Positions 5,285-29,119 of a stretch of DNA of 64,000 nucleotides are shown here, piece after piece. The position numbers and the translations under genes are program-made. The first letter of the stretch is position 1. The number at the start of each line of letters is the position of its first letter. The DNA is from Candidatus Electrothrix communis (lineage in GTDB: Bacteria > Desulfobacterota > Desulfobulbia > Desulfobulbales > Desulfobulbaceae). The stretch lies in contig CP130629.1 in NCBI GenBank assembly GCA_030644725.1, forward strand, positions 2,705,501 through 2,769,500, given 5' to 3'. Under the pieces are notes generated by a model. That model was not told where the DNA came from. It saw only the letters and a list, made by a program, of their open reading frames with translations, and made no database searches.

Positions 5285-6618
5285 TTAGGCCGGTTCAACA
5301 CCGGTAATTCGCGCCAACTCAGGATCCAGGGCCGCCAAATCCGTTTGATCAAGGTCATGGACAGAATCCCTACCGCAGCTACGGGCAACGGATTTCACTT
5401 CCTCGGTCGTGGCCTGGATAAAATGAGCAATGCGGGCTGCCCCCTGCTCCACATCAAGCCGCTTGCGCAGTTTTTTATCCTGAGTTGCAATCCCATGGGG
5501 GCAATTGCCGAGATGACATTGGCGAAGATAGGTACAACCTAAAGCGATCTTTAAGGCCCCACCCATGTATACCCCCTCCGCCCCCAGAGCAAGGGCCTTG
5601 GCAATATCTCCTGCATGGCGGATACCACCTGCCGCAATCAGGGTCACCCGATGAAACAGCTCCTCCCGCCGAAGAAAGTCGGCAACCCTGGGCAAGGCAT
5701 AAACCAAGGGCAGCCCGATATGATCCTTCATGGTAACAGAGGCTGCACCGGTCCCGCCTTCACCTCCGTCAATGACCAAGACATCTGGGATATACTCCTG
5801 ATGAAAAATGGCTTTCAGGTCATCCTCCAGATGCCCCCCGGCTATTTTTACCGCAATGGGTTTTCCCTGGGTGAGCTCACGGAGTTCAAAAATTTTCTCA
5901 GACAATTCCGCTCCACCTCGGATGTCCGCATGGACTGACGGTGAGCTCGCCGCCTGTCCTATGGGAATTCTCCGGGTAGCAGCAATATCAACACTGACAT
6001 TTGCTGCGGGTAACTGCGCCCCTGTCCCTGGATGAGCTCCCTGGGCAAGCTTGATCTCCACCATATCTGCCAATAACAACCGCTCCTTTGTAACCCCGAA
6101 ACGGCCCGGAGCATACTGCAAGGTGAGATATTCAGCAAGCTCCCGCTCCTCATCCAGCATTCCCCTTCTCCGGTATTGGCGATGGTTCCTACTTGAGACG
6201 AGGCCAAGGCCAAGGCCATCTTTGCTTCTTTGCTTAATGCCCCGTATGACATTGCGGCATTGAGAATCGGTGTTTCAAGGATAACAGGCTGTTGAGCTAC
6301 CTTCCCAAGGACGACTTCCGTTGTCACCTCAACCATCTCAGAAAGGGGTAACTTGGCGAGCACAGCAGGACGGAAAATCAAGTCATCCATATTCAGGAAA
6401 ATCCTTGAAGTCCCCTTGCCTTCGCGAAACGGTTCCCCAGTCTCCGCCATCGCCTTGATCATCCGTACCGTCGTGATATCCCAATTCCCAAGTTTACCCC
6501 GATCAGCTGCTGTGTAGTCCATAAACAGATCAGCCATGGCATTACAAATCGGACAAAAATGAAAATCAAGGCCCCCTGAATGCAGATAACCACAGACGGA
6601 ACAACGATAGGTCTTCAT
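5285..6618 (-). pseudogene. Rubredoxin-like plus FMN-binding glutamate synthase domain protein, one frameshift
   Basis: The start at 6618 (MKTYRC) has GGAGG nine bases upstream. Residues 1-35 hold two CxxC pairs (CSVCGY and CPIC), a rubredoxin/rubrerythrin-like metal site. The rest matches the FMN- and 3Fe-4S-binding central domain of glutamate synthase: NTGEGG around the frameshift, a GGEGGTGAA loop, and the cluster motif C-x5-C-x4-C in GCTYLRQCHLGNCPHG. The frame changes at the C4 run 6162-6165 (G4 on the coding strand); one extra G restores the family motif NTGEGGM and gives 445 codons. Stand-alone proteins of this kind in anaerobes lack the amidotransferase domain, and their electron donor and substrate are usually unknown. 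It lies between the ASKHA ferredoxin gene (63-base gap) and the cytochrome pair, which suggests a redox role. Confidence 0.78.
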
Positions 6619-6681
6619 CAGGAATATCCTCCAACGCTGATCAAGGTACAAAATATCAACGAAAAACTCATAAGCCTTGTC

Positions 6682-8987: not shown

Positions 8988-9632
8988 ATGGCAGGATTAC
9001 GGGAACAAAAGAAAAAAGCGACCAGGGCCGCGATCATGGAAGCGGCAATCAACCTCTTCGGTGAGCGGGGCTATCAAAGCACCAGTGTTTCCTCCTTGGC
9101 CAAGGCCGCAGGTATAGGAAAAGGGACCATTTACTCCTATTTCACTTCAAAAAATGAAATCCTGCTGGCCTTCTGCGAGGACGAGCTGACCTTTATCCAC
9201 GATGAGATCCAGAAAAAACTCAATCCCGATGCCCCGCTGGCGGAAAAAATGCTTCTGGTGCTCATGAGCGAGTTTTGTTTTGTTACCAAAAATAAAGACT
9301 TTGGAAGGACTCTCCTGCGGGAACTGACCTTTCCCAAAGAAATCACCATTGAGAAGTCAAGAGTGATTGAAGAACGTTTCCTCAATCTTTTTGTCAAAAT
9401 ATTCAAGGAAGGTCAGGAAAGAGGACAGCTGCGCCGGGATATCGAGCTAATTATTACGGGGGGACATTTTTACGGTCTGTACTTGATGGCGCTTTCAGCC
9501 TGGTACTCCGGTCGTCTGCACACGGAAGACGATGTCCGCGAGTCCCTGGAGCTGATGATTAATCAGGCTCTGACCGGGCTTACTCCGCAAGAAACGCCTG
9601 CAAAGGCCATAAATCAAAACAACGGATCATGA
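8988..9632 (+). CDS. TetR-family transcriptional regulator of the RND efflux genes
   Basis: The start at 8988 (MAGLREQ) is chosen over the upstream frame extension because a purine-rich AAGAGAAAA precedes it and TetR proteins start close to their helix-turn-helix. The product has 214 residues. The N-terminal helix-turn-helix is clear: RAAIMEAAINLFGERGY, then TSVSSLAKAAGIGKGTIYSY, then FTSKNEIL. The C-terminal ligand domain is variable, as expected. Its TGA stop overlaps the ATG of the adaptor gene (ATGA at 9629-9632), so the two are translationally coupled. By analogy with AcrR-type repressors it probably represses the pump and is released by a pump substrate (inference). The intergenic region upstream would hold the operator, but I could not identify a convincing one. 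Confidence 0.9.
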   Translation: MAGLREQKKKATRAAIMEAAINLFGERGYQSTSVSSLAKAAGIGKGTIYSYFTSKNEILLAFCEDELTFIHDEIQKKLNPDAPLAEKMLLVLMSEFCFVTKNKDFGRTLLRELTFPKEITIEKSRVIEERFLNLFVKIFKEGQERGQLRRDIELIITGGHFYGLYLMALSAWYSGRLHTEDDVRESLELMINQALTGLTPQETPAKAINQNNGS

Positions 9633-10783
9633 CACCACCCAACCCGAAAACCCTGCGTGGGAAGATTGTCTGGTTTGCCCTCAAGAACCTGCCCGGCCTG
9701 TTCTTCATCCTTATCCTGCTTGGTGCGGCCCTGCTGGTCGGACAGCGAGTTGCTGACCAAAAGGCAGCCCACAAGGAGGAGCTGAAAAACGCCACTGCTG
9801 TGGAAAATCCGCCGACCAATGTGGTTGCCCTAGAACTCAGACCAACAATTCTGCAAGACAAGATCACCCTGCCCGGCATCGTCGAACCTTGGACAAAACT
9901 GGCGCTGATGTCGAAGATCGGCGGCAGCATTGAAAAGATATTTGTCCAGGAAGGTGATCATGTCAAACAGGGCCAACTCATCGCCCGGATTGAAAACGAG
10001 GATTACCGTATCGCCCTGGAATCGGCCAAGGCCGCCTATGCTCTGGCCAAGGCTGATTACGACAGGAACAAAACCCTCCGTAAAAAAGGCATCTCCACCC
10101 AAGCCAATCTGGATGAGCAGCAATCCAAGATGCGCCAGGCCAAGGCCGCACAAAAAAACGCAGAGCTCGCCCTCTCTCGCTGCCGGGTTACCGCCCCCAT
10201 CTCCGGGATTATCAGTCAGCTGAATAGTGAAGTAGGGATGGTGGTCAACCAGATGATGCCTCAACCCATTGCTGAAATCCTCCAAATTGATCGAGTCAAG
10301 GCTGTGGTTGCTATTCCCGAGGCGGACGTGAGTGCAGTCCGGCAACTCAAGCAGGTCGGAATAGAGATTCGGTCACTGGATAATGCCCGCTTCCAGGCCC
10401 AGGTTCATTTCCTGGCTCCGGCACCAGAGACCCTGGCCCATGCCTATCGGCTTGAACTGGCTTTGAATAACCCAGAGGAAAAAATCCTGCCGGGCATGTT
10501 CCTTCAGGCAAATATCGTCAAGCAGAGCAAAGAGGACATTGTCGCGGTTCCTCTGTACACAGTTATCTCCCGAAACGACGAACAGTTTGTCTATGTGGTA
10601 GAGGACGGCATTGCCCACAAACGACCGGTGGAAACTGGTTTTACTGAGGGCTGGCAGATCCTGATCCAGAGCGGACTCCACCACGGCGAGAAGGTTATCA
10701 TCCAGGGGCACCGCAGCATAGAAGACGGACAAAAAGTCCGCGTTGTCAAGGAACTCACTGATCTCAGCGAGTTTATGCCCTGA
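9629..10783 (+). CDS. RND efflux membrane-fusion (periplasmic adaptor) protein
   Basis: The protein has 384 residues. A membrane anchor lies at about residues 14-36 after a short cytoplasmic N-terminus. The lipoyl half-motifs are clear (GGSIEKIFVQEGDHVKQGQ near residue 93, and CRVTAPISGIISQLN near 189), separated by a helical hairpin of Ala/Lys-rich coiled coil (residues about 120-180). Beta-barrel and membrane-proximal domains follow, with LPGMFLQANI near residue 290. This order is diagnostic for HlyD/AcrA-type adaptors, which link an RND pump to an outer-membrane channel. The usual next gene, the RND pump, is absent here; a candidate starts at 18059 on the same strand. No TolC-like gene is in the window. 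The 3' end overlaps the convergent NhaA-like gene by 11 bases. Confidence 0.9.
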   Translation: MTPPNPKTLRGKIVWFALKNLPGLFFILILLGAALLVGQRVADQKAAHKEELKNATAVENPPTNVVALELRPTILQDKITLPGIVEPWTKLALMSKIGGSIEKIFVQEGDHVKQGQLIARIENEDYRIALESAKAAYALAKADYDRNKTLRKKGISTQANLDEQQSKMRQAKAAQKNAELALSRCRVTAPISGIISQLNSEVGMVVNQMMPQPIAEILQIDRVKAVVAIPEADVSAVRQLKQVGIEIRSLDNARFQAQVHFLAPAPETLAHAYRLELALNNPEEKILPGMFLQANIVKQSKEDIVAVPLYTVISRNDEQFVYVVEDGIAHKRPVETGFTEGWQILIQSGLHHGEKVIIQGHRSIEDGQKVRVVKELTDLSEFMP

Positions 10784-12077
10784 TCATTTCAGATCTCTCC
10801 TTAATCGACACCTCTCGAACGACACCTGTGCCGCAGGTGTCGATTTCCTCCATCTCCTCCGTTGACCCGCCTGTGGTGCAGACTGTGGTCTGCGCAACAG
10901 AAGAAGGCAGACACATACGCAGCACCATATAACCAACAAGGCCGGAAGCCACTGAGCCCAGGATAATACCGAGCCGCTCATCAAAGGTTATATCAACACC
11001 TGTTTCTTCAAAAGCAAGCGATCCCACAAAGAGACTCATTGTAAAGCCGATCCCGCCAAGCGCTGCGGTACCGTACAAGGCCTTCCAGGACATCCCCTTG
11101 GGCAATTCAGCCAGCTTACATTGAACAGCAAGCCAACAGATCCCAAAGATACCTACCTGTTTTCCGACAAAGAGCCCTAAGGCAATCCCCAGCGGAACAT
11201 CGTGAAGAACATAGTCCAGCCCGATGCCGGAAATATTGATCCCGGCATTGGCAAAGGCAAAAATCGGCAGGACAAAAAAAGCGACAACGCAGTGGAGATC
11301 ATCTGCAATACTCTTGAGCGGCGAACGACTCGCGTCCTGCTTGGAGACCATGGGAATAAACAGGGCAAGGATGACACCGGCCAAGGTCGCATGTACCCCG
11401 GATTTCAACATGGCCACCCACATCAGGATACCTATCAGTATATACGGGCTTTTTTCCTCTGAATGACGTTTGTTCAACCAAGCCAAAATAAAAATGCAGC
11501 AAGCAACCACAACAAGAGAGAACACGGAAACGCTTGCCGTGTACAGCAGGGCTATAAGGATAATCGCGCCGATATCTGTGAATATTGCCAAGGAGGTGAG
11601 AAAGACTTTGATTCCCGTCGGCACCCTCTCCCCTAACAACGACAAGATTGCCAGCGAAAACGGCAGGCTGGTAACAACAGGCACAGCCCATCCCTTCATG
11701 GCTATGGGATCGGCAGCATTGAAAAAAGTGTAAATCAGACCCGGAACAACCATGCCGCCGACTGCCCCGAGAGCGGGCAGGATGATATTGCGTTTATCTG
11801 TAAGCTCGCCTTGTAAGATTTCTCTTTTTAATTCAAGGGTGATGAAAAAAAAGAACAGGGCCATGAGGCCGTCGTTGATCCAGAGCAAGAGGGGCTTTGC
11901 GATTTCAAAGGTTCCTATCCGAATTTCTACCGGGATATCAAGAAACAGCGCATAGTACGATTGCAGCGGTGTGTTTGCGAAGACAAAGGCAAGTACAGCT
12001 GCAACCAGCAGGACTATACCGCCGGATGATTCCAGCTTGAAAAAAGTATGTATGAATGATTCTTGGTTCTTGTTCAT
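10773..12077 (-). CDS. nhaA: NhaA-type Na+/H+ antiporter, divergent at two acidic residues
   Basis: The start at 12077 (MNKNQESF) matches the usual NhaA N-terminus; the frame runs open to 12323 but that part is unlike the family. The 434-residue protein has about eleven hydrophobic segments and conserved NhaA landmarks: WINDGLMA with the family Asp (residue 69), LELKRE with the pH-sensor glutamates, and VGKQVGI with the helix X Lys. Two landmarks differ. The helix IV motif that reads ATDIAF in E. coli reads VTSLPF (Asp133 to Ser), and the helix V motif IIDDLGAI reads IFTDIGAI (Asp163 to Thr, Asp164 kept). Asp163 and Asp164 are key residues in E. coli NhaA, so transport may have a different stoichiometry or ion. 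The C-terminal 60 residues are extra, with Cys and acidic residues. Confidence 0.88.
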   Translation of the reverse strand: MNKNQESFIHTFFKLESSGGIVLLVAAVLAFVFANTPLQSYYALFLDIPVEIRIGTFEIAKPLLLWINDGLMALFFFFITLELKREILQGELTDKRNIILPALGAVGGMVVPGLIYTFFNAADPIAMKGWAVPVVTSLPFSLAILSLLGERVPTGIKVFLTSLAIFTDIGAIILIALLYTASVSVFSLVVVACCIFILAWLNKRHSEEKSPYILIGILMWVAMLKSGVHATLAGVILALFIPMVSKQDASRSPLKSIADDLHCVVAFFVLPIFAFANAGINISGIGLDYVLHDVPLGIALGLFVGKQVGIFGICWLAVQCKLAELPKGMSWKALYGTAALGGIGFTMSLFVGSLAFEETGVDITFDERLGIILGSVASGLVGYMVLRMCLPSSVAQTTVCTTGGSTEEMEEIDTCGTGVVREVSIKERSEMIRA

Positions 12078-12287
12078 TTTTCTCGTTATGCGGTGGTGGA
12101 ACTCAGTCCTCGCCTGATAGCGGATAGCTTTTTTCGCAGGGGCTTTCTCACGACCAAGCCGAAACTGTTGAGTTTTCGTATTATATTGAGTACTCGTAGT
12201 GTGTTGTACAATTTCAACCAGAAGCATAAGGTAAGATACACCGAATTGCTTTCGATGGGAAGCAGGTAGCTTTTGATTGCTTGCGGT

Positions 12288-12352
12288 ATTCGAACCTGTG
12301 ACTCCTCCCTGTAACCCCATCACTGCGCACTCCTATTTTGCTCTGTGATACC
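12288..12352. repeat. Left copy of an imperfect repeat flanking the KAP insert
   Basis: This copy contains ATTCGAACC (12288-12296), ATCACTGCGC (12319-12328) and TGTGATAC (12344-12351). The same three blocks occur in the same order and orientation at 14716-14772. The last two blocks are exactly 25 bases apart, start to start, in both copies, with ATTTTG conserved between them. Read on the minus strand, GGTTCGAAT resembles a tRNA T-arm, but no complete tRNA folds here. Confidence 0.6.
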
Positions 12353-12541
12353 GGCATGGGTACATTTCTTATCACGGATGACGGCGTGAGAGGCCGTGAA
12401 GAACAAAGCATTCAGACAGTTTTATGCGGTTTTTCGCCGCTTGAGACTGATCCGCACCGATCCGTTTGCAGCCCGCAAGCCCGCAATCAGCCTTCTGAAC
12501 GCGGTTTTTCACCTCTCCGTCTTTCCATTACGGCTTTTCCA

Positions 12542-12569
12542 TTGACTTTTCAGCATGATATTCTATTTT
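12542..12569 (+). promoter_or_regulatory. Candidate promoter of the KAP NTPase gene
   Basis: TTGACT (12542-12547) and TATTTT (12564-12569) are separated by 16 bases and lie about 70 bases before the start codon, at the point where the sequence becomes AT-rich. The -35 box matches five of six consensus bases and the -10 box four of six. Confidence 0.4.
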
Positions 12570-12636
12570 ACTGAGCAGTAGGCTGTCGGGCTGTCCCTGA
12601 TTTATTCGTTTAACATTTTGGTATTCTTGAAAAACT

Positions 12637-14543
12637 ATGACTTTACTAAATCAACATGTAACTGAATATCTCAATTATTATTCTAAACTTAAAACCTCAC
12701 CCGGATATGCCGTTCTCCTTAAAGGAAAATGGGGTTGTGGAAAAACGTGGTTTATAAAAAAATATCGTGATGAAATAAATGATGATTGTGAAGGAAAGCA
12801 AAAAAATCGTTGTAAATGTTTGTATGTGAGTTTGTATGGTGTTACAAGTTACGGAGAAATTGAACATATATTTTTTCAGCAATTACACCCTGTTCTTTCT
12901 TCTAAAGGGATGGCGATAACTGGTAAAATACTAAAAGGTTTAATCAAAACATCAATAAAAATTGATATAGATGGTGATGGCAAGAGCGATGGTTCTGTGG
13001 GGTCCCAAATACCAGATCTTAATTTACCAGAAGAATTTTTAAATACCGATGATAGTATTTTGATTTTTGATGATTTGGAGAGGTGCGGGATAAATCAAGA
13101 AGATATTCTTGGTTATATAAATTATTTTGTTGAGTATCAAGGGTTGAAGGTGATCATAATAGCTAATGAAGAAGCTATTATAGATAAAGAAAAATATATT
13201 GTAGAAAATGATAGTACAGCTGTATCTTATAAAGAGAAAAAAGAAAAGATTGTCGGGAAAACATTGGAAATAAAATCGGATGCCGATTCAGCTATTGATA
13301 ATTTTATAAATGATATAGATAATGAATCTTTAAGAAGCTCAATAAAAGATAAAAAAAGTTTAATTTTAGATATTTATAGCGGTTCGTCCTATGATAATCT
13401 TAGACACTTGAAGCAAGGGATATTGGATTATGCACGTTTAGTTAGTTCGTTCGATAATGATGTGCAAAATAATACTGAATTCATAAGTCATTTTATTAAG
13501 GTTTTTTTTCCATTATATTTTGAGATTAGAAGTGGAAAGTTTAATGCTGAGGATATTAAGGATGTAAATTGCATTCTTGCAAATTATCGTAATGAAAATA
13601 ATGAAATGGTAAATTTAAATAAAAGCTTAAAAAATATAATTACCAAGAATCATTTGATTTGCTTTTTTCCTTAGAATTTTGGATTGATTTTTTTGAAAAA
13701 GGATTAATAAACAATGAAATGATTGAAAATGATTTAGGTAATATAAAATATTTCAGTTCATCACATAGGGAAAGCTGGAGAACACTCTGGTGTTATCATG
13801 AACTAGATGACGAGTCTTTCAAGGAGACCATTTCGAAAGTTGAGAAAGAACTTGACAATAATGATTATCAGGACCCAGGAGTGATTTTACATATAGCAGG
13901 TATGTTTCTTGATTTTTCCCATAATGGTATTTACGAGGGAAGTAACGATGAAATATCTAAAAGAATAATGTCAGCTATTTCTAATTTACCAGAAAATCCA
14001 TTGATTGATTTTATTGACTTTGAAAAATTTAATTATACTGATAGTTATCGAGGTTTATCTTTTCAAGGAAATGAGCTTGATGAGTTTAAAGATATAAAAA
14101 AACAAATAGTGAATTTTGCAAAAAATAAGAAGGAGTCTAACCTGCCTGATGAGGCTTCTTGTTTGTTAACTACTATGAAGACAGATACTGATTTATTTTG
14201 GAGAAAAGTAACACCAGGACCTTCAATTGATTCTGTTTATCACAATGTACCGATATTACATCATATTGAAACATCAGATTTTTTACGTGCGTATACTGAA
14301 ACTCCTCCTGAAAGTAGAAGATTTGTATTTTATGCAATAAAAGGTAGATATTGTGAATCGATGTACTGTAATTTATTAAAAGAAGAATTGATTTGGCTTA
14401 GAAAAATAAGAGAAGTTTTTTATAACTATTCGCTTGCTAATGAAGGGAAGCTTTCGTCGCTTGTTGTGAAGCAACGCCTTGGAGATATTGATGAATCTAT
14501 CGATTGTCTAGAAAAGTGCTGCCAATGTGAACAACAGGTTTGA
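12637..14543 (+). pseudogene. KAP-type P-loop NTPase, one frameshift
   Basis: Two frames (12637-13674 and 13659-14543) join into one protein if one T is added to the T6 run at 13663-13668, giving 1908 bases and 635 residues. The N-terminal P-loop module has Walker A GKWGCGKT (residues 30-37), Walker B ILIFDDLER (141-149) and a following IIIANEEAI (173-181), the pattern of KAP-family NTPases. The C-terminal half is helical, Lys/Glu/Asn-rich and unfamiliar; no membrane segments are evident. KAP ATPases occur in mobile regions, and some relatives take part in phage exclusion, so defence is a reasonable but unproven guess. The gene is far more AT-rich than its neighbours, is flanked by related repeats and ends at its own terminator, all signs of transfer. 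A -1 slip at T6 is a biological alternative to an assembly error. Confidence 0.7.
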
Positions 14544-14662
14544 TATGACATTCATTTTGTGGATGGAAAGTCGCATAATGTGTGATTATGTTAAATTTGA
14601 CTTGCTGTTATTATTTGCTTATCATTATCAATAATTGTTCTTGATTGTCTTCTTTGACTTGG

Positions 14663-14697
14663 CCGGGTTACGTGCTTAGCGCGTAACCCGGTTTTTT
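14663..14697 (+). terminator. Rho-independent terminator after the KAP gene
   Basis: A 13-bp stem (CCGGGTTACGTGC pairing with GCGCGTAACCCGG, one G-T pair) closes a TTA loop and is followed by six T. It lies 120 bases after the KAP stop codon. Confidence 0.88.
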
Positions 14698-14715
14698 CTT
14701 TGTCCTGGCTCTGGG

Positions 14716-14772
14716 ATTCGAACCCGCGATCCCAGCCTGATCACTGCGCGGGCTGATTTTGGGGTGTGATAC
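14716..14772. repeat. Right copy of the repeat flanking the KAP insert
   Basis: The copy holds ATTCGAACC (14716-14724), ATCACTGCGC (14740-14749) and TGTGATAC (14765-14772), in the same order as the left copy at 12288-12352. The T-arm-like core here is also part of an inverted repeat, CTGGGAT and ATCCCAG, 11 bases apart. The two copies enclose the AT-rich KAP gene, so they could be remnants of attachment sites or of a tRNA-derived repeat family. Confidence 0.6.
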
Positions 14773-14923
14773 GAGAGGGGATACTTTTTCCTATTTGAGG
14801 AAAGTTGTTCTTTACTTTTAAAAAGCCAGAGTGTTTATTTTAGAAATACTGAACGACACACCGCCATAAAAGCAGTACCTTGTTGTTCTTGTTTTTTGTT
14901 TTCGCGTCGCCTTCTCTTTTGAG

Positions 14924-14952
14924 TTGGCGGAGTTGTCGGGAAGCTATATATT
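14924..14952 (+). promoter_or_regulatory. Candidate promoter of the dsbB-dsbA pair
   Basis: TTGGCG (14924-14929) and TATATT (14947-14952) are 17 bases apart and end 31 bases before the dsbB start codon. They match four of six and five of six consensus bases. Confidence 0.5.
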
Positions 14953-14983
14953 CTAAGCCTGGCTCAATCTTAAAAAGATAAAT

Positions 14984-15421
14984 ATGACGAATTCAGATCA
15001 AATGTCCAATGCAAACTGGGCAATTCTTTTTTCATGCTGGCTACTAGCATGCATCTCTGCACTGGGAAGCCTGTTTTTTAGCGAAATAATGAATTTTGCT
15101 CCCTGTGTTTTATGTTGGTACGAGAGAGTTTGTTTGTACCCCTTGGTTTTAATTTTTTCAATGGGGCTCTTTTCTTTTGATAAAAGCGTTGTGAGATTTT
15201 CCCTCCCCTTAGCTTTAATAGGATGGTTTATCACGCTTTATCATAACCTTCTCTATGCTGGAATTATCCCTGAAAGCATACAGCCCTGCACCCAAGGCGT
15301 TTCATGCACAGAGGATTACATCGACGTGTTTGGTGTTTTCTCAATTCCGATGCTTGCGTTAATATCATTCTCAATCATAGCAACATTATTATTTATTTTA
15401 AAAAGAAAGCTTTCCAAATGA
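14984..15421 (+). CDS. dsbB: DsbB-type disulfide bond formation membrane protein
   Basis: The product has 145 residues with four membrane segments. Two periplasmic cysteine pairs are visible: CVLC (in PCVLCWYERVC, just after helix 1) and CTQGVSC in the second loop, which has the C-x5-C spacing of BdbC-like members rather than that of E. coli DsbB. Such proteins reoxidise a DsbA-type partner and pass electrons to quinone. The dsbA start codon overlaps the dsbB stop (ATGA at 15418-15421), so the pair is coupled. Like the KAP gene upstream, the two are more AT-rich than the rest of the window and may have arrived together with it. A second ATG lies six codons downstream; I kept the first because the promoter lies close. 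Confidence 0.88.
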   Translation: MTNSDQMSNANWAILFSCWLLACISALGSLFFSEIMNFAPCVLCWYERVCLYPLVLIFSMGLFSFDKSVVRFSLPLALIGWFITLYHNLLYAGIIPESIQPCTQGVSCTEDYIDVFGVFSIPMLALISFSIIATLLFILKRKLSK

Positions 15422-16068
15422 AAAGAGAACATATAGTTATAGTTTCTGCGATATTCCTGATAGTCGTATTTATACTTGGTGCCTCTTTCTATAAGAAACA
15501 GCAATCAGAAAAATTAGGCTTTATGGCCAAAGAAAACACTTCAACGTTTGTAAGAGAGCATTCACTGACGCTTGGCAGTGCTGATGCAAAAGTTTACCTC
15601 GTAGAGTTTTTCGACCCCGCATGTGAAACCTGTAGAGCATTTTATCCTTTCATTAAAAAAATGATGGCTGCTAACCCAGGGAAGATTAAACTCGTTATGA
15701 GGTATGCCCCTTTTCATGAGGGCGCAGATTATGTTGTGAAAATGCTTGAAGCCGCGAGAATACAGGGGAAATACTGGGAAACCTTGGAGGTTATGTATAA
15801 ATACCAACCTCTTTGGGCAAGCCATCATAACCCACAGTCTCAATTATTATGGCGAGTTCTTCCAGAGGCAGGGCTCGATTTAGAACAACTTGAAAAGGAC
15901 ATTAATAGCCCTGCAATTGATCAACTTATCAAACAAGATCTTGCAGATGCTCAAGCTCTCAATGTCAAAAAAACACCTGGTTTTATTGTAAACGGGAAGC
16001 CACTTCAAGACTTTGGCTACAATCAATTAATCGAGTTAGTGGAAGCTGAAATTAAAGCAAATTATTAA
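15418..16068 (+). CDS. DsbA/BdbD-like thioredoxin-fold oxidoreductase
   Basis: The start is the ATG at 15418 overlapping the dsbB stop; upstream in-frame codons overlap dsbB. The product has 216 residues. An N-terminal membrane anchor or uncleaved signal (about residues 5-23) is followed by a periplasmic thioredoxin-fold domain with the active site CETC (in FDPACETCRAFYPF) and a cis-Pro loop in KKTPGFIVNG. The CxxC dipeptide Glu-Thr differs from the Pro-His of E. coli DsbA and is common in BdbD-like enzymes. It introduces disulfides into exported proteins and is reoxidised by the adjacent DsbB. Its substrates here are unknown; cysteine-bearing cytochromes and small secreted proteins in the window are possible clients (inference). 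Confidence 0.88.
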   Translation: MKREHIVIVSAIFLIVVFILGASFYKKQQSEKLGFMAKENTSTFVREHSLTLGSADAKVYLVEFFDPACETCRAFYPFIKKMMAANPGKIKLVMRYAPFHEGADYVVKMLEAARIQGKYWETLEVMYKYQPLWASHHNPQSQLLWRVLPEAGLDLEQLEKDINSPAIDQLIKQDLADAQALNVKKTPGFIVNGKPLQDFGYNQLIELVEAEIKANY

Positions 16069-16090
16069 GCTTAAACTGACCGTTGCGGAT

Positions 16091-17680
16091 CTAGGGAAGG
16101 GGAAGTGTAAAAGAGAACTGCGAGCCAACCCCTTCTTTAGATTCCACCCATATCCTGCCGCCAAGCATTTCAACATAAGCCTTTGCAATCGCAAGGCCCA
16201 ACCCTGAGCCCTCAAAAGCTCTTGAGCATTCAAGGTCAGCCTGTTCAAAGCGGTTAAAAACAGCTTTAATCCTGGATTGCGGAATGCCTATCCCTGTATC
16301 TTTTACATAAAATCCCAACTCATTATAACCATTGTCCGTAATTAATGAACAGCCGATGGTTACCTGACCTTGATCAGTAAACTTGATCGCGTTTTTAATC
16401 AAGCTTGAGAGTATCTCCTCAAGTTTTTGTTTATCTGTAAAAACGCCTGGATCGCTCTCTGCAAGTGAAGATCTGCAAATCAGTTCGAGCCCTTTTGCCG
16501 CAGCTTTCATGTTGAAAAAATCATATTGCTCATCAATAAGTTGATTAACATCTGTTGCAATTTTTATAACCTCAACCTGCCCGGCTTCAATTTTCGAAAT
16601 ATCAATAAGATCATTTATGGTGCCCAACATACGCCCACTGCTTTCTTTAATAATTTTTATATAATGCCCCTGCTCTTCTCCCATCAGCTGCGGTTCTTTT
16701 AATAAATCGACAAACCCTAAAATACCATTCATCGGGGTACGAATTTCGTGGCTCATATTTGCAAGAAAGGCACTTTTTAAGCGATCGCTTTCTTCAGCTT
16801 TTTCTTTAGCTTTGATTAATTCCTGTTCCACCTTCTTACGATCGGTTATGTCGCTTAATGAAGTAACTCGAACCGTTTTTCCTTTGTAGTGCATCATTTT
16901 TCCTTGTATCATGCACGGAAATGTCGTTCCATCTTTTTTAATTGCTAATGTTTCATAAGGCTGTTCATAGCCGACAAGCATATTATTCATTACTTTTTCT
17001 CTGCATTCGGGTGCAATCCAGTCTGTTCCATATCTGCCCATTGCTTCTTCATTCGAATACCCAAATTTTTTTTCAGCACTCAAGTTTTGTTCAATACACC
17101 TGCCTTGCTCGGAAAGGAAAACACTTTCAAAGGCGGCTTCACTTAATCCGCGATATTTCGCCCTGCTCTCCTCAAGTTCCAGCTCGGCCTGCCTGCGTTC
17201 GGAGATATCATCAAATATCGCCGAAAACACATCTTTTTTACATTTGAAAGCAAAAACAGAATAATATTTATTCGTTCGCTCGTGATACATTTCAAAATTA
17301 ATCGGATTTCCCGTTGTCACTACTTCACTAAATTTTGCAAACCATCCAGGCTCGGTTCCGGGCAGCATTTCTGACACCTTCTTACCCATTGCGGCTTCCT
17401 TTTCCAGACCGGTAAACTTTTCATAGATTGGATTCATATCTTGATATATGCAATCCGAAATATTTCCATTTTTATCATATATTACCTTGCAAAAAACAAC
17501 ACCAGCCAGCATTTTATTAAATAAAAAGTCAAACTTTTCCGAGGACTCTTGAGCTGCTTGCTCTACCGAAATGTGTCCTACACATCCTTCTTGTAAAGAC
17601 TCTTTCAATACATCATATTGTTGTTGTAATCTTTGTAATTCAATCGCGAGTTCTTCTTTGGTTTTTTCTTTATCATTCAT
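16091..17680 (-). CDS. PAS-PAS sensor histidine kinase
   Basis: The 529-residue protein starts at an ATG preceded by AAGGAAG. An N-terminal coiled coil (residues 1-30) is followed by two PAS domains, roughly 47-165 and 170-285; the second ends with SLSDITDRKKVEQEL. The HisKA domain has the phosphoacceptor in [19 protein letters not shown]. The ATP-binding domain shows the N box LIKNAIKF, the G1 box VKDTGIGIP and the G2 box EGSGLGLAIAK. No membrane segments are present, so it is a soluble kinase sensing an internal signal. No response regulator adjoins it, so it is an orphan kinase. It is convergent with dsbA, leaving a 22-base gap. Confidence 0.92.
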   Translation of the reverse strand: MNDKEKTKEELAIELQRLQQQYDVLKESLQEGCVGHISVEQAAQESSEKFDFLFNKMLAGVVFCKVIYDKNGNISDCIYQDMNPIYEKFTGLEKEAAMGKKVSEMLPGTEPGWFAKFSEVVTTGNPINFEMYHERTNKYYSVFAFKCKKDVFSAIFDDISERRQAELELEESRAKYRGLSEAAFESVFLSEQGRCIEQNLSAEKKFGYSNEEAMGRYGTDWIAPECREKVMNNMLVGYEQPYETLAIKKDGTTFPCMIQGKMMHYKGKTVRVTSLSDITDRKKVEQELIKAKEKAEESDRLKSAFLANMSHEIRTPMNGILGFVDLLKEPQLMGEEQGHYIKIIKESSGRMLGTINDLIDISKIEAGQVEVIKIATDVNQLIDEQYDFFNMKAAAKGLELICRSSLAESDPGVFTDKQKLEEILSSLIKNAIKFTDQGQVTIGCSLITDNGYNELGFYVKDTGIGIPQSRIKAVFNRFEQADLECSRAFEGSGLGLAIAKAYVEMLGGRIWVESKEGVGSQFSFTLPLP

Positions 17681-18058
17681 GAAATTCTTCCTTTAAAAGG
17701 ATATTTTCTTGTAACCAAAGTTGCTGCCCATAAGAATAAAGCACAACGTGGTTTTTGATTTGAGATTTCTTTCATGTGTGCTGTAACTTTTTAACTCGCT
17801 ACCGCCGTGTGACAGATGGAAAGTCGGGTCATTATTATACAGCCGCACACTTTTCAGCACCAGACATAACAGCCTGATAAAACTACCACTCCCAAACACT
17901 TGCCGCAAGCAGAATATACTACTCTGTCACCGCTCAGCCAAAATGCAAGCTTACCGGCCACCTCAGCAGCACTCCTTCCTTGACGCAACCCCCAACACCT
18001 TGTAAAATCGACCGCAGTCAATATTCATCTTCAGCAACAACTCAGGGAAATTCGCACC
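17681..18058. other. Intergenic region between kinase and RND pump genes
   Basis: These 378 bases lie between divergent genes and must hold both promoters. I found no convincing -35/-10 pair, repeat or RNA structure. The ribosome binding site of the kinase is at its left end. Confidence 0.4.
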
Positions 18059-21000
18059 ATGATCATATCCGACCTTGCCGTTAAAAAAAGCGTTTCTGTT
18101 CTGGTTCTGGCCGCCCTTATCCTGGTCATAGGGACCTACAGCTATCTCACCCTGCCCCGTGAGGCTGAGCCGGATATCAGCATCCCCCATATCTTTGTCT
18201 CCACCGCCTATCGAGGCGTGGCACCGGGCGATATCGAGAACGCCATCACCATTGAGATCGAAAACAAACTCAAGAGCCTGGACGGCGTCAAGAACGTCAA
18301 GTCCATCAGCTCTGAAGGCGAGTCGCTGATCGATGTGGAATTTACCACCGGAGTGGATATTGACGATGCCCTGCGTAAGGTGAAGGACAAGGTGGACGAG
18401 GCCAAGGGTGAATTACCCACGGATCTGGAAGATGATCCCTATGTCTTTGAGGTCAATATCTCCGAGATGCCGATCCTGATTTTCTCCCTGGCCGGAACCT
18501 GTGGAGAGCGCTGCCTGAAGGAGATTGCTGATGACCTGGAAGATGAGATTGAAGGCGTGCCCGGTGTGCTGGACGTTGAGATCACCGGAGCACGGGAACG
18601 GGAAATCCGCATTGAGTTCTTTCCGGAGAAGCTCACCTATTACGGCCTGAGCATCCCTGCTGTGCAGGCGGCTGTTCAGGGTGAGAACAGTAATACCTCG
18701 GGCGGGGCACTCCACATGGGCGACGGCAAATTCCAAGTCCGGGTACCCGGAGAGTTTGCCACCCCAGAAGAGCTGTACGGTCTTGTCATCGGAACCCACG
18801 GCGGCCAGCCCGTCTATGCCCGTGATGTAGCACAGGTACTGGATACCTTTAAGGAGGAAACCAGTCGCTCCCGGCTCAACGGCCTGCCTGCGGTCAATAT
18901 CGTGGTCAAAAAACGTTCCGGTGAAAATATCATCGCCATTGCCGATGCCGTCGAAGACATCCTGCAAAAAAATCAACCAAGCTGGCCCAGCGGCACGACC
19001 ATTACCAAGGTGATGGACAAGGCCCAGGAAACAAAAGCCAATGTGGCGGATCTGGAGAATAATATTCTCTCCGGCCTGGTCCTAGTGGTGGTGGTGATCT
19101 TTTTTGCCATGGGTATCCGCAATGCCCTGCTAGTCAGCATGGCCATCCCCTTTTCCATGCTCCTCTCCTTCATAGCGCTTCAGCTATTAGGAATCACCCT
19201 GAATATGGTGGTTTTATTCAGCCTGACCCTGGCCCTAGGGATGCTGGTGGACAATGCCATTGTCATCATTGAAAACATCTACCGCTTCATGGAACAAGGC
19301 GTAGGGCGGGCAGAGGCGGCCATGAAGGCGACTTCGGAAGTGGCCATGCCGGTGATCGGCTCCACCCTGACCACCCTGGCCGTGTTTTCACCCATGCTCT
19401 TCTGGCCCGGCATCATGGGCGAGTTTATGGGATACCTCCCCCTGACTCTGATCGTCACCCTGTCTTCCAGCCTATTTGTGGCCTTGGTGATCAATCCGGC
19501 CCTAGCCTCCCTGTTCATGAAGAGCGCAAAACAGGTGCGGTCGGTCTCCTCAGCCGAGATTGAAGCGGCCGGAGAACAACCGGTGACCATCCAAGGGCCG
19601 TTGCTGCGCACCTATGCCTGGTTGCTCAAATTCAGCCTGGCCCACCCCTTTGCTCTGATTGCGGCTGCGGTATCCCTGTTGGTTTTCATGATCCAAGGCT
19701 GGCTCTTGGTGGTGGGCATTGAAAAGCCGATGGAGTTCTTCCCAGATATCGAACCCAAGGGGATCTATATCAACACAGACATGCCTGAAGGGGCTGATCT
19801 GGAGTATATCGACCGAATCCTCCGCCAGATTGAGGAGGCCGTGGCCGGGAACCCCAAGGGCGAAAAATCTTCCACCTCTACAGAAGCATCCTCCGGCCCC
19901 AGTGACCTGCCAAACGTCAGAATCATCTACAGCAAGGCTGTCACCGCCGCCGGTGGCGGGTCCGCATTTGAAGCGAACACTCCCAATCATGTGGGTGTCC
20001 GTTTTATTGATCTAGAAGATCGCTCCCGTCCCACCTACGATACGGTTGAGGAGATCCGAAAACGCCTCAAAACTATTGCCGGGGCTAAAATCACGGTGGC
20101 TATGGAGGCGGAAGGCCCACCCACTGGCGCAGCCATCAATATCGAGATCAGCGGCGATAATTTTGCCGTGCTTGGCTCCATTGCCAGGGAGATCAGATCC
20201 GCTCTGGAAAAAACCCCTCATGTCGAGGATATTCAGGACAACTTCGTGGAAGGCACCCCTTCGGTACGAATCAAAATTGATCGACAGAAAGCCGCTTTAT
20301 TCGGCCTGAACACCAGTGCCATAGGCTCTGCCATCAAAACTTCCTATAACGGCTTGGCAATCTCCTCCTTTCGGGAAGGTAATGAGGATTACGATATCAC
20401 GGTTCAGCTGCCGAAAAAGGATCGCCAGGTCGATAATCTGCTGCGCGAATTGATGATCCCCACACCAACCGGCGTCATTGTCCCGTTGTCCACCCTGGCA
20501 ACGGTGGATTATACCGGCTCCCTGGGCAATATCAACCGGATCAATAATCAGCGGACAATCACGGTCAAGGCCAATGTGGACGAGACCAAGATTCCAGGTC
20601 CGGTGGTTCGGGAACAGGCCGAGAAGCTGCTAGCTGAAATGCCCCTGCCACCGGGCTATACAGTGAGCTTTACCGGCGAAAATCAGGAGCAGGAGGAGTC
20701 CCAAAATTTCCTCAGCGGGGCCTTTCTGGTTGCCCTGTTTTTTATCTTCCTTATCCTGGTCACCCAGTTTAACTCGGTGAGTCAGCCCTTTATCATCATG
20801 AGTTCGGTAATGCTGTCCATGGGTGGGGCCTTTTTCGGCCTGATGCTGTACCGCCAGCCCTTTGGTATTATCATGACCGGCATCGGGGTGATCTCTCTGG
20901 CCGGGGTGGTGGTTAATAACGCCATTGTGCTGATCGACTACACCAATAAACTGCGTGAAAATGGTTTTGCCTTAATGGATGCCGTGGTCTCTGCTGGTGC

Positions 21001-21325
21001 TACCCGCCTGCGCCCGGTCCTGCTCACTGCTGTGACCACGGTTCTGGGCCTGATCCCCATGGTCACCGGAGTATCCTACGACTTCCGCAACCTGTGCATC
21101 TCCTGGGTTAGCGAATCCAGCCAATGGTGGAAATCTATGGCCGTGGTGGTGATCTTCGGCCTGCTGGTGGCCACCTTCCTCACCCTAGTGGTGGTGCCGG
21201 TGCTGTATTTTCTGATCGAGCGAAGTAAAGAGATGTTTGTGGCGGGAATAAAGTGGTTTAAGCGAAAGAGGATGGAGTTGTATTTGGTACTTTCAGGGGA
21301 GAAGGGTGGAAAGGTTGAGGGGTAA
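18059..21325 (+). CDS. RND-family efflux pump inner-membrane subunit
   Basis: The protein has 1088 residues, the normal length for an AcrB-type pump. Helix 1 follows the start (VKKSVSVLVLAALILVIGTYSYL), then the first porter domain, the central helices (about residues 335-500) and a second porter domain and helix bundle. The helix 4 motif reads LGMLVDNAIVIIENIY: one proton-relay Asp is kept and the second position is Asn, seen in many non-enterobacterial pumps. The helix 10 region has VVVNNAIVLIDYTNKLRENG. It would export drugs, bile-like compounds or other amphiphiles with an adaptor and an outer-membrane channel. No adaptor adjoins it; the TetR and adaptor genes at 8988-10783 lack a pump gene, so the original operon may have been split by the 7 kb between. 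Confidence 0.92.
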   Translation: MIISDLAVKKSVSVLVLAALILVIGTYSYLTLPREAEPDISIPHIFVSTAYRGVAPGDIENAITIEIENKLKSLDGVKNVKSISSEGESLIDVEFTTGVDIDDALRKVKDKVDEAKGELPTDLEDDPYVFEVNISEMPILIFSLAGTCGERCLKEIADDLEDEIEGVPGVLDVEITGAREREIRIEFFPEKLTYYGLSIPAVQAAVQGENSNTSGGALHMGDGKFQVRVPGEFATPEELYGLVIGTHGGQPVYARDVAQVLDTFKEETSRSRLNGLPAVNIVVKKRSGENIIAIADAVEDILQKNQPSWPSGTTITKVMDKAQETKANVADLENNILSGLVLVVVVIFFAMGIRNALLVSMAIPFSMLLSFIALQLLGITLNMVVLFSLTLALGMLVDNAIVIIENIYRFMEQGVGRAEAAMKATSEVAMPVIGSTLTTLAVFSPMLFWPGIMGEFMGYLPLTLIVTLSSSLFVALVINPALASLFMKSAKQVRSVSSAEIEAAGEQPVTIQGPLLRTYAWLLKFSLAHPFALIAAAVSLLVFMIQGWLLVVGIEKPMEFFPDIEPKGIYINTDMPEGADLEYIDRILRQIEEAVAGNPKGEKSSTSTEASSGPSDLPNVRIIYSKAVTAAGGGSAFEANTPNHVGVRFIDLEDRSRPTYDTVEEIRKRLKTIAGAKITVAMEAEGPPTGAAINIEISGDNFAVLGSIAREIRSALEKTPHVEDIQDNFVEGTPSVRIKIDRQKAALFGLNTSAIGSAIKTSYNGLAISSFREGNEDYDITVQLPKKDRQVDNLLRELMIPTPTGVIVPLSTLATVDYTGSLGNINRINNQRTITVKANVDETKIPGPVVREQAEKLLAEMPLPPGYTVSFTGENQEQEESQNFLSGAFLVALFFIFLILVTQFNSVSQPFIIMSSVMLSMGGAFFGLMLYRQPFGIIMTGIGVISLAGVVVNNAIVLIDYTNKLRENGFALMDAVVSAGATRLRPVLLTAVTTVLGLIPMVTGVSYDFRNLCISWVSESSQWWKSMAVVVIFGLLVATFLTLVVVPVLYFLIERSKEMFVAGIKWFKRKRMELYLVLSGEKGGKVEG

Positions 21326-21804: not shown

Positions 21805-21896
21805 CCTTAATAATTACCCTTCAAATATACAGCCGCAGTAATGTAAACGAAGAACATGCAGGTTCTCAATGATTGAGTTTTGAACAAGGAGTCGTT

Positions 21897-24800
21897 GTGA
21901 CAAGAAACAACAGTAACGCATCATTTCAGGCCGTTTATCCGAAAAGATTGGGAGTTATTCTGTGCAACTCTACAGGAACAGATTTGAAGCCGAAAGGACG
22001 ACATTTGCGCTGGTTTGTACCAAAAAGCCTAGGATATCCTGACGGCGGCTTTGATTTGATTAAAATCAAATACTCCAATTGGGAGAAATGGTCTTCTAAC
22101 GAGAAGTTACTTCGATATATTCCTTTTGAAAACAAGGGGAAAATATGGGATGTCAATTGGTCAGGGAAAGAAAAAATACAAGCACTTGATGATATTATCT
22201 CTCTGATTGCTCCTGCGGATGTTGATCTCGAAATAACTGAAGAAGGTATTATTAATACCACTAAGCGAAGCAATAAAAATATCCTATTCCGTTTCAAACA
22301 ACCTGTTCTTTATCTTCGTATAGAACTTGATGAACCGGACGACTCTGCATCGCCGAGAGATACTGTTAAAATTTTCTACAAAAGTGCGCAAATAGGATCA
22401 AAAAAAATTGCCAAAGAAATTGTTTTTGAGCAGCCCAATATTACGGATGTTTTGTTGCCGTTGGGTTTTCGTTCAATACGACAAGTTTGTTATGTAACTG
22501 AGAAAAGTTTGATTGTCAGAGAAGATATTCTAAAGGAAAAAATGATTCAATCGTTTCATATTCCAGGCAACGTTGATGATGCCTATACACTGGTTGAGTC
22601 AGGCGCGAGGGGAGGAATTCATAATCGTTTTATGAAGGCAGATCGTATTGACCAGTTTATCGCTGGCTACCCGGCTGACATGGTAAGCAAATTGGTTGAA
22701 CGGCAGCAAGAGTCGTTGGGTAACCCAGGACTTACTGTTGACACAATAAAACAGGACGGCCTTTCCACTACTCAGGTATCAGTGCTTGATTATCTTGATT
22801 TTGCCGCACTTGACCCGAATGTTGCCAGGATGCTGGCATGTTATACGGTTGCCCCTGAGTCTTCCCATAAAAACGACCTGTACATTGTCATAGCAAAATA
22901 TACAGATCAAAATCTGTTCGGTTTTTGTTTCAGTCACTCCGCTTTACCGCTGCCAGAAGTTACAGGGAAAATACAGTTAACCCAACTGCCCGGTATCAGT
23001 TACCGAAAGAGTACAAGGGAGGAGTTAACGCAGCCCGGTGCTCCAAAGTTTCAGCCTCTAGGTTCAGTGGGGGCCTCGTGGATTGAAAACCAAAAAGCCG
23101 ATGCCGTTCACTCCTCCTCTCCAGTTTTTTTAGATATCACACGTCATTCGCCTGCCGGTCCCGAAGAGATTACTCTATCAAAGCCGCAGCTAGCCACTCG
23201 TCGAAGTAAATATATATTCCGTGACAGCGACTTACCCCTTAATACTAAATTTGTTTATGAGGTTAAAGGGATTGATCTTTTCGGCCGCACAGGAGGTGAA
23301 ACGATAAAGAGCGAAGAGATCTCTCTTAAAAACCTCAAGAGACCTGTTCCTCCCAAAAAACTCAAAGTAAAAGTCAAGCAGCATGGTTTCCCCTGGGACC
23401 AACCCAGCAAGAGGAACGTACCTGATATCTTACGGGGTGAACTGAGTGCCGTTATGGAATTCGGAGAAATCCAGCGACGCATTTCCCCCGACGTAACCGA
23501 CTTGGTATGGCTCTGGCGCAAGTTGGACGACAAAGACAATTTAACGGATAATCTAAAGGTTAAACACTGGAATCCGTTCGGAACTATCAGGATTAAGGAG
23601 CCGTTATCTGCAAATGTACATTTCGCCCCGGATGAAAAGATGTCCGACTTTTCCTTCCGCGTAGAAGCAGTACGAGAGACGAGTCATGTTGTCGGGGAAA
23701 ATTCTCAGGCTCAACCAATGGATCCGATACTCCGCAATGCCCTGAAAAGCGGTGATATATCAATGTCGCCTCGTCTTGAGTTGCTGCTTGACCAAGCATT
23801 ATTGGAACCGGATCTTTTTCTCGGTTTGATGCTAACAGCGGGAGGGCATGAGTATGAGGTCATCGGATCTACAGCTGGCCTAGCGTATAAGCAAGACAAC
23901 AGCCCTGATAAAAAAACGACGGCAAGGTTAATCATTTCAGGCACAAAAAAAACATCAGGGATTCAGGAAAAGATGCGAGTCTTTCTGATTGATCCCATCT
24001 ATTTCTTTCGCATTGAAGAAGTACGAAAAAAAGATCACCCAGAGGACATCCTTCATTTATTTCCAAGGAACTCGATATTCCACAATGCTCTAAACAGGAA
24101 TTATTCAAGACGTTTTCGCTTTGAACTGTTACTTGACCAAGCATTATTGAAACCTGACCTTTTTCTCGGTACTATACTAACAGCGGGAAAGCATAAGTAT
24201 AAGGTAATCGGTGCAAAAGCCGGTCTGGCATATAAGCAGGACAAAAGTCCTGATAAAAAAAAGACCGCAAGATTGACTATTCTGACTGTTTCAGCTACGA
24301 GAAATACCCCTAAGATTCAGAAAAAAATGCAACTCTTCCTGGCTGATCGACAGGCGGAAGGAATTTATGAAGGGCAGCAACTATCCCGAGCGTTCATGAA
24401 TAAACTACGTGGACTGGTGCGAATCAGACTCTCAGGAAAGCTGGAGAAATGGGAAACAACAGCGGCTGGCGGTGAACTAGCCCTTGATTTTTATTTCAGG
24501 CAAGTCGAGGGAGAAATTCAGCCGTTAAATGCGGCAGACCATCATCAAGAGAAGCAATGTGAAACATTTATTGCGCGGGTAGTTTCGGATATACGAGTTA
24601 TCGGGGATGAGCGTGAGATACTTGTGCGAATGAAACCGGCGGATTTTACCCGGTTGCTACAAATTAACGGTCAAAAAATCGAGACACAGGCTCGTTACTA
24701 TCCGCCCTACGTTTTACGCAAAACCATCGGACTAAACGGAGAAAAAGGCGATATCACTCTGCACATGTCACCAGAACGACGTTTCGAGAGGATTGCGGTC

Positions 24801-29076: not shown

Positions 29077-29119
29077 ATATTGTACTGACAAAAATACAAC
29101 AGCATAAGGCGGAAATAAC

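Follow-up and report, generated by a model that had tools for sequence, protein, structure and literature searches.

A 64,000-nucleotide stretch of the Candidatus Electrothrix communis genome (assembly GCA_030644725.1, contig CP130629.1, positions 2,705,501 to 2,769,500 of the forward strand; hereafter the window) contains an nhaA gene that raises the question of whether, and how, an antiporter of this family can operate after two aspartates of its ion site have been replaced. The gene, referred to here as nhaA*, occupies positions 10773-12077 on the reverse strand, with its ATG at 12077 and its stop at 10773, and is an intact reading frame of 434 residues. Its product is a full-length match to TIGR00773 (443 bits, cut-off 254) and covers positions 2-374 of the 374 in PF06965 (451 bits, cut-off 23.5); it is 47-49% identical to the E. 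coli NhaA structures, which phmmer places as its best solved relative (6.2e-115), and its best matches in every library searched are NhaA. An AF2 model built on a 13-sequence alignment (mean pLDDT 72.3, pTM 0.71) has the NhaA structure 7s24 as its best match, with TM-scores of 0.80 (by query) and 0.91 (by target), and all 12 PDB matches at E up to 0.001 are NhaA; in this model helices IV and XI are broken at residues 136-138 and 341-344, as the NhaA fold requires. Membership of the Kef group was considered and rejected, PF06965 being the only Pfam-A match at E up to 0.001, to the exclusion of PF00999, the Kef/NHE family profile.

The departures lie in the ion site. The initial annotation had placed Ser at the position of Asp133 and Thr at that of Asp163, with Asp164, Asp65 and the helix X lysine kept, and this is confirmed by an alignment with E. 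coli NhaA that is gap-free from helix II to beyond helix V and so rules out an offset hiding the acids. Ser137 (codon AGC, 11667-11669, reverse strand, as are all codons given here) stands at Asp133 and Thr167 (ACA, 11577-11579) at Asp163, and Asp69, Thr136, Asp168 (GAT, 11574-11576) and Lys306 (AAA, 11160-11162) preserve Asp65, Thr132, Asp164 and Lys300. The unwound part of helix IV (codons 135-143, 11649-11675) reads V-T-S-L-P-F-S-L-A against A-T-D-I-A-F-A-L-G in E. coli, and thus has V-T-S-L in place of the A-T-D-I motif of NhaA, and helix V has Thr-Asp in place of the Asp163-Asp164 pair; the third NhaA feature, Lys300 of helix X, is present as Lys306. Since profile and fold are those of NhaA and two motif features of the clade are absent, the product is an NhaA, but a divergent variant of the family and not an ordinary member. 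The Ser and Thr codons are each at least two base changes away from the GAC and GAT codons of a canonical relative (L005). To our knowledge, the retained Asp164 is essential in all CPA transporters tested.

Such a site is rare. Once 28 duplicates and 10 pieces under 330 residues had been set aside, 199 distinct NhaA proteins could be compared, mostly best-scoring matches and hence a sample biased to close relatives; 197 of them have both Asp133 and Asp163, and all 199 have Asp164. The genomes searched comprised 8 of the genus (7 with a match), 57 of relatives (27), 395 of the phylum (58), 398 of the phylum of G442, a Pseudomonadales MAG (234), 150 of the phylum of G445 (41), 251 of the phylum of G441 (47) and 6 others (6), and a pattern-based scan of a collection of named species added 14 loci; these sets overlap. 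Only the window gene and a counterpart with 88% identity, from Ca. Electrothrix aarhusensis MCF (L004, genome G004), depart from this; the counterpart has the same Ser/Thr pair, which makes a sequencing error unlikely, and none of the 197 others lacks Asp163. The departure is thus more than a matter of chance. Within the genus the variant occurs in two of the eight genomes, one of the others being only 69% complete, so that absence there is not sure. Each of the two carriers also has two further NhaA with the ordinary motifs, and the variant is thus an extra intact copy beside two ordinary ones in two cable-bacterium species. Its closest canonical relatives are 69% (L121 in genome G673) and 67% (L005) identical. 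A second natural departure from the site was seen at the Lys300 position, which is Lys in 193 of the 199 proteins and Asn in six (L011, L016, L133, L167, L217 and L242), all of which keep Asp133, Asp163 and Asp164.

The replacement of the two aspartates is accompanied by other changes, all of them missed in the initial annotation. Of the columns at which at least 90% of 139 canonical sequences agree, 91 in all, nine are altered in both variants: in E. coli numbering, the changes are G76T, A131V, D133S, I134L, A135P, A137S, D163T, F174L and E252A. Glu252 is presumably part of the NhaA pH sensor. Six of these nine fall among the 12 conserved ion-site columns (hypergeometric p about 1e-4), and at the 95% level five of seven changes fall in the 10 site columns out of 66 (p about 5e-4), the limits of the site having been drawn in both tests after the changes had been seen. 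Raising the threshold to 97% leaves 59 columns, of which seven are changed in the window protein and nine in its Ca. E. aarhusensis counterpart (set median 0); the divergent L043, L104 and L049 have more such changes (11-18) but retain both aspartates. Pro108 and Ala160 are invariant among the 199 NhaA, and nhaA* accordingly has neither P108E nor A160S. No compensating acid was found near Lys306, nor any replacement acid in the core: seven acidic residues are common to both variants at columns less than 30% acidic in the 139 canonical sequences (residues 6, 58, 94, 207, 293, 324 and 362, the C-terminal tail excluded), none of which sits in the middle of a membrane helix by the helix limits of the model, Asp293 being at the start of helix X, 13 residues from Lys306. 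Lys306 would therefore be unpaired. The likeness to E. coli NhaA thus takes in the full-length match, the fold, both helix breaks and Asp65, Thr132, Asp164 and Lys300, and the differences are the Ser/Thr pair, V-T-S-L for A-T-D-I, the E252A change and, at the C-terminus, a tail of about 40 residues that the aligned relatives do not have.

Purifying selection on the gene is clear. The two species give a dN/dS of 0.174 at a dS of 0.39 (0.143 over residues 1-392, 0.65 over the C-terminal tail), and neither a broken frame nor a dN/dS near 1 was found. Sixteen comparisons of canonical NhaA, many of them near-saturated in dS, gave 13 finite ratios of 0.039-0.165, all slightly below that of nhaA*; the canonical pair nearest in dS (L001-L021, dS 0.407) gave 0.165 and that of the same two species (L002-L024, dS 0.70) 0.095, and three neighbouring genes gave 0.072-0.115 at dS 0.52-0.60. 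Selection on nhaA* is perhaps a little weaker than on its peers. The earlier proposal that the change is functional rather than decay is thus supported: integrity in two species beside the same adaptor gene, the low dN/dS and the concentration of changes in the ion site speak for it, but they do not prove it, and the ratio is slightly above that of peers.

From its position in a 72-row tree, nhaA* looks like a horizontal arrival. The variant pair forms one branch (100/100) within a group of six (100/96). The rest of this group is canonical: one sequence is from an Anaerolineales MAG, two are from gammaproteobacterial MAGs and one is from a different genus of the same family. The remaining Electrothrix NhaA lie in the sister group. 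The join of the pair with the Anaerolineales sequence is itself weak (81/6), and L121 is not among the rows of this tree. The Anaerolineales sequence, L005, is found among proteobacterial sequences, reflecting horizontal transfer or wrong binning. A horizontal arrival sits uneasily with the published view that the three NhaA clades of cable bacteria trace to their common ancestor (PMC10030654), part of which clustering is disputed in a later paper (PMC12093952).

The surroundings of the gene are variable. An efflux adaptor gene of the HlyD/CusB type (9629-10783, forward strand) is convergent with nhaA* and overlaps its end, and is likewise its neighbour in Ca. E. aarhusensis; an RND permease gene (18059-21325, forward strand) follows the adaptor directly in genome G001, 128 bases away, and nhaA* lies in a stretch inserted between the two. 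This gap (window positions 10784-18058; compare L117, L118 and L119) is an insertion hotspot, with different insertions in the three genomes looked at, those of the window, G003 and G005: defence-type genes occur in the window and in G003, where the gap holds a DNA methylase and other genes, and other ORFs occur in G005. The adaptor side in G004 is the same as in the window, and the permease was not found there within the 16 kb read. Also in the inserted stretch, ORFs at 12637-13674 and 13659-14543 (forward strand) match parts 4-318 and 331-618 of the 624 positions of the PADLOC candidate defence model PDC-S49 (KAP NTPase), and this candidate defence gene therefore looks split; a DsbB-like and DsbA-like tandem follows at 14984-15421 and 15304-16068 (forward strand). 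A promoter search for nhaA* returned 2 sites against 2.0 expected. Elsewhere in the window, overlapping ORFs in different frames at 5285-6160 and 5959-6651 (reverse strand) correspond to one intact 447-residue ORF in L047 (12543-13886), through a frameshift or an assembly error, and three very long ORFs (1502, 902 and 2537 residues) occupy 21873-36733 (forward strand), the first of which has no NCBIfam match. Another nhaA of the genus, L048 in G003 (G003:C1:1464959-1466852), has canonical motifs and is broken into two ORFs, of 298 and 138 residues, with about 630 bases between them.

What the substitutions do to transport can be considered in the light of published mutants, from which a different stoichiometry, ion or direction, as first suggested for this gene, may fairly be inferred; the substitutions probably change how ions are exchanged. 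Electrogenic antiport of 2H+ for 1Na+ is characteristic of NhaA. In E. coli NhaA, D163C, D163N and D163E are inactive and bind no Li+ (PMC4810432), D133S/I134T has lost antiport but still binds Li+ (PMC9408914), and D133S, D133A and D133C are active (PMC4810432, PMC9408914). The double mutant D163N/K300Q is active and electrogenic with a very low turnover, its NapA equivalent being seemingly inactive in electrophysiology but active in fluorescence assays (PMC4810432, PMC9408914), and in simulations cited in PMC9408914 Asp133 replaces the proton site that it has lost. The engineered P108E/A160S/D163N protein is active and electroneutral, and the electroneutral CPA1 exchangers also lack Asp163 (PMC6181914). 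In the salt-bridge model Lys300 is the second proton carrier and needs Asp163 as its partner (PMC6181914, PMC5427271), although K300 mutants stay electrogenic (PMC5427271), and which of Asp163, Lys300 and Asp133 carry the two protons of NhaA is still debated (PMC9408914).

We tentatively favour the reading that nhaA* encodes a working exchanger of the NhaA fold with one carboxylate, quite possibly exchanging one monovalent cation for one proton electroneutrally, at a site with some resemblance to that of the Kef K+/H+ exchangers. Asp168 would be the single titratable carboxylate, so that one cation would be exchanged per proton with no net movement of charge. Where the lost carboxylates were, Ser137 and Thr167 would present hydroxyl groups; Lys306, left unpaired, would bond to hydroxyls at the helix break, those of Thr136 or Ser137, in an arrangement like that of KefC, where Ser125 holds Lys307. 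In addition to two ordinary NhaA, the cell would thereby have a voltage-independent exchanger of Na+ (or, less probably, K+) for H+. In favour of this are an intact gene conserved in two species with a dN/dS of 0.174, the replacement of both conserved acids together with four of their neighbours in the helix IV break, the six of nine changes that fall in the site, and the retention of Asp164 and Lys300; the CPA1 exchangers and the P108E/A160S/D163N protein offer precedents (PMC6181914), as does KefC, which works with Gln-Asp and a serine-bonded lysine (PMC11150392). Against it stand the inactivity of the single Asp163 mutants (PMC4810432) and of D133S/I134T in antiport (PMC9408914), and the lack in nhaA* of P108E, A160S or a replacement core acid, so that any activity would have to come about by another route. 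Moreover, the lysine-free D163N/K300Q protein is electrogenic, and loss of Asp163 need not mean electroneutrality; a second proton carrier in nhaA* is nevertheless hard to find, because Asp133, the stand-in in the D163N/K300Q simulations, is also missing (PMC9408914). Under the rule that Ser or Thr at motif position 1 or 4 goes with K+ and non-polar residues with Na+ (PMC6181914), the Val and Leu at these positions of nhaA* point to Na+ over K+.

One extension of the electroneutral reading, which we regard as unlikely, is that a natural NhaA has arrived by convergence at a layout of charges like that of Kef, electroneutral and possibly K+-accepting, with Asp133 and Asp163 dropped and Lys300 left without an acid partner. 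KefC, as described, has Gln-Asp for Asp-Asp and Lys307 bonded to Ser125 of the helix break, and its authors read the site as electroneutral (PMC11150392). The likeness lies in the uncharged Thr167 before Asp168, Ser137 in the break and Lys306 without an acid partner; unlike KefC, nhaA* has Leu138 for Thr127 and Thr for Gln155, and no RCK domain, and in KefC T127V neither ion is clearly bound (PMC11150392). From E. coli D163N and P108E/A160S/D163N, with which it shares the loss of Asp163 and the presence of Asp164 and Lys300, nhaA* differs in keeping Pro108 and Ala160, in having Thr and not Asn, and in having lost Asp133 also (PMC6181914). If the convergence were true, changes other than P108E/A160S would have overcome whatever makes D163N inactive in E. 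coli.

The main rival to electroneutral exchange, ranked next after it and in our view a serious if rather unlikely account, is a paralogue that folds and inserts but performs no antiport, and is kept, for example, as a cation-binding sensor or as the mixed-dimer partner of an ordinary NhaA. Loss of Asp163 alone is enough to inactivate the E. coli protein (PMC4810432), D133S/I134T shows that Li+ can be bound without antiport (PMC9408914), the two ordinary NhaA of the genome can do the transport, and E252A removes a third conserved acid. Such a role fits less well with a core that is otherwise retained, Asp164, Lys300 and Thr132 included, and with substitutions that are polar and site-specific, and no partner or sensor domain was found in searches with Pfam-A and NCBIfam profiles. 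An antiporter that is still electrogenic, with Lys306 carrying the second proton without an acid partner, is improbable: the lysine is kept and is the second carrier in the salt-bridge model, but the same model demands Asp163 as its partner (PMC6181914, PMC5427271), the partnerless lysine of KefC goes with a site read as electroneutral (PMC11150392), and the electrogenic K300 mutants imply that the lysine is not needed (PMC5427271). We give little credence to an uncoupled or differently coupled carrier (a cation leak, a uniport or another substrate moved through the NhaA fold), for although coupling may be lost with two of three proton-linked acids, and the change of Ala135 to Pro reshapes the helix break, there is no sequence signal for another substrate and the best matches in all libraries are NhaA. 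Early decay, or the neutral leftover of a horizontally acquired copy, would suit the location in an insertion hotspot, the existence of a split nhaA in the genus (G003) and a dN/dS above those of the 13 finite canonical comparisons and three neighbouring genes, but is very unlikely given a ratio far below 1, a reading frame that is intact and carries the same Ser/Thr pair in each of two genomes assembled separately, and changes that cluster in the ion site and are not scattered.

Three NhaA types, NhaA_1, NhaA_2 and NhaA_3, have been published in Ca. E. aarhusensis and Ca. E. laxa (PMC10030654; also PMC12093952), and nhaA* is probably one of these. A term search of the main texts of these two papers gave no residue-level statements on NhaA, and no report of a natural NhaA lacking Asp163 appeared among the open-access papers searched. 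Profile annotation through the TIGR00773 equivalog calls nhaA* a plain NhaA, and it would therefore pass for an ordinary antiporter wherever nhaA is counted as a salt-adaptation marker in cable bacteria. Most mutants of Asp163 are inactive. An NhaA that evolution has kept without Asp163 and Asp133, but with Asp164 and Lys300, is a natural test of the mechanism; its stoichiometry and ion preference would help in deciding between the two-aspartate and salt-bridge models.
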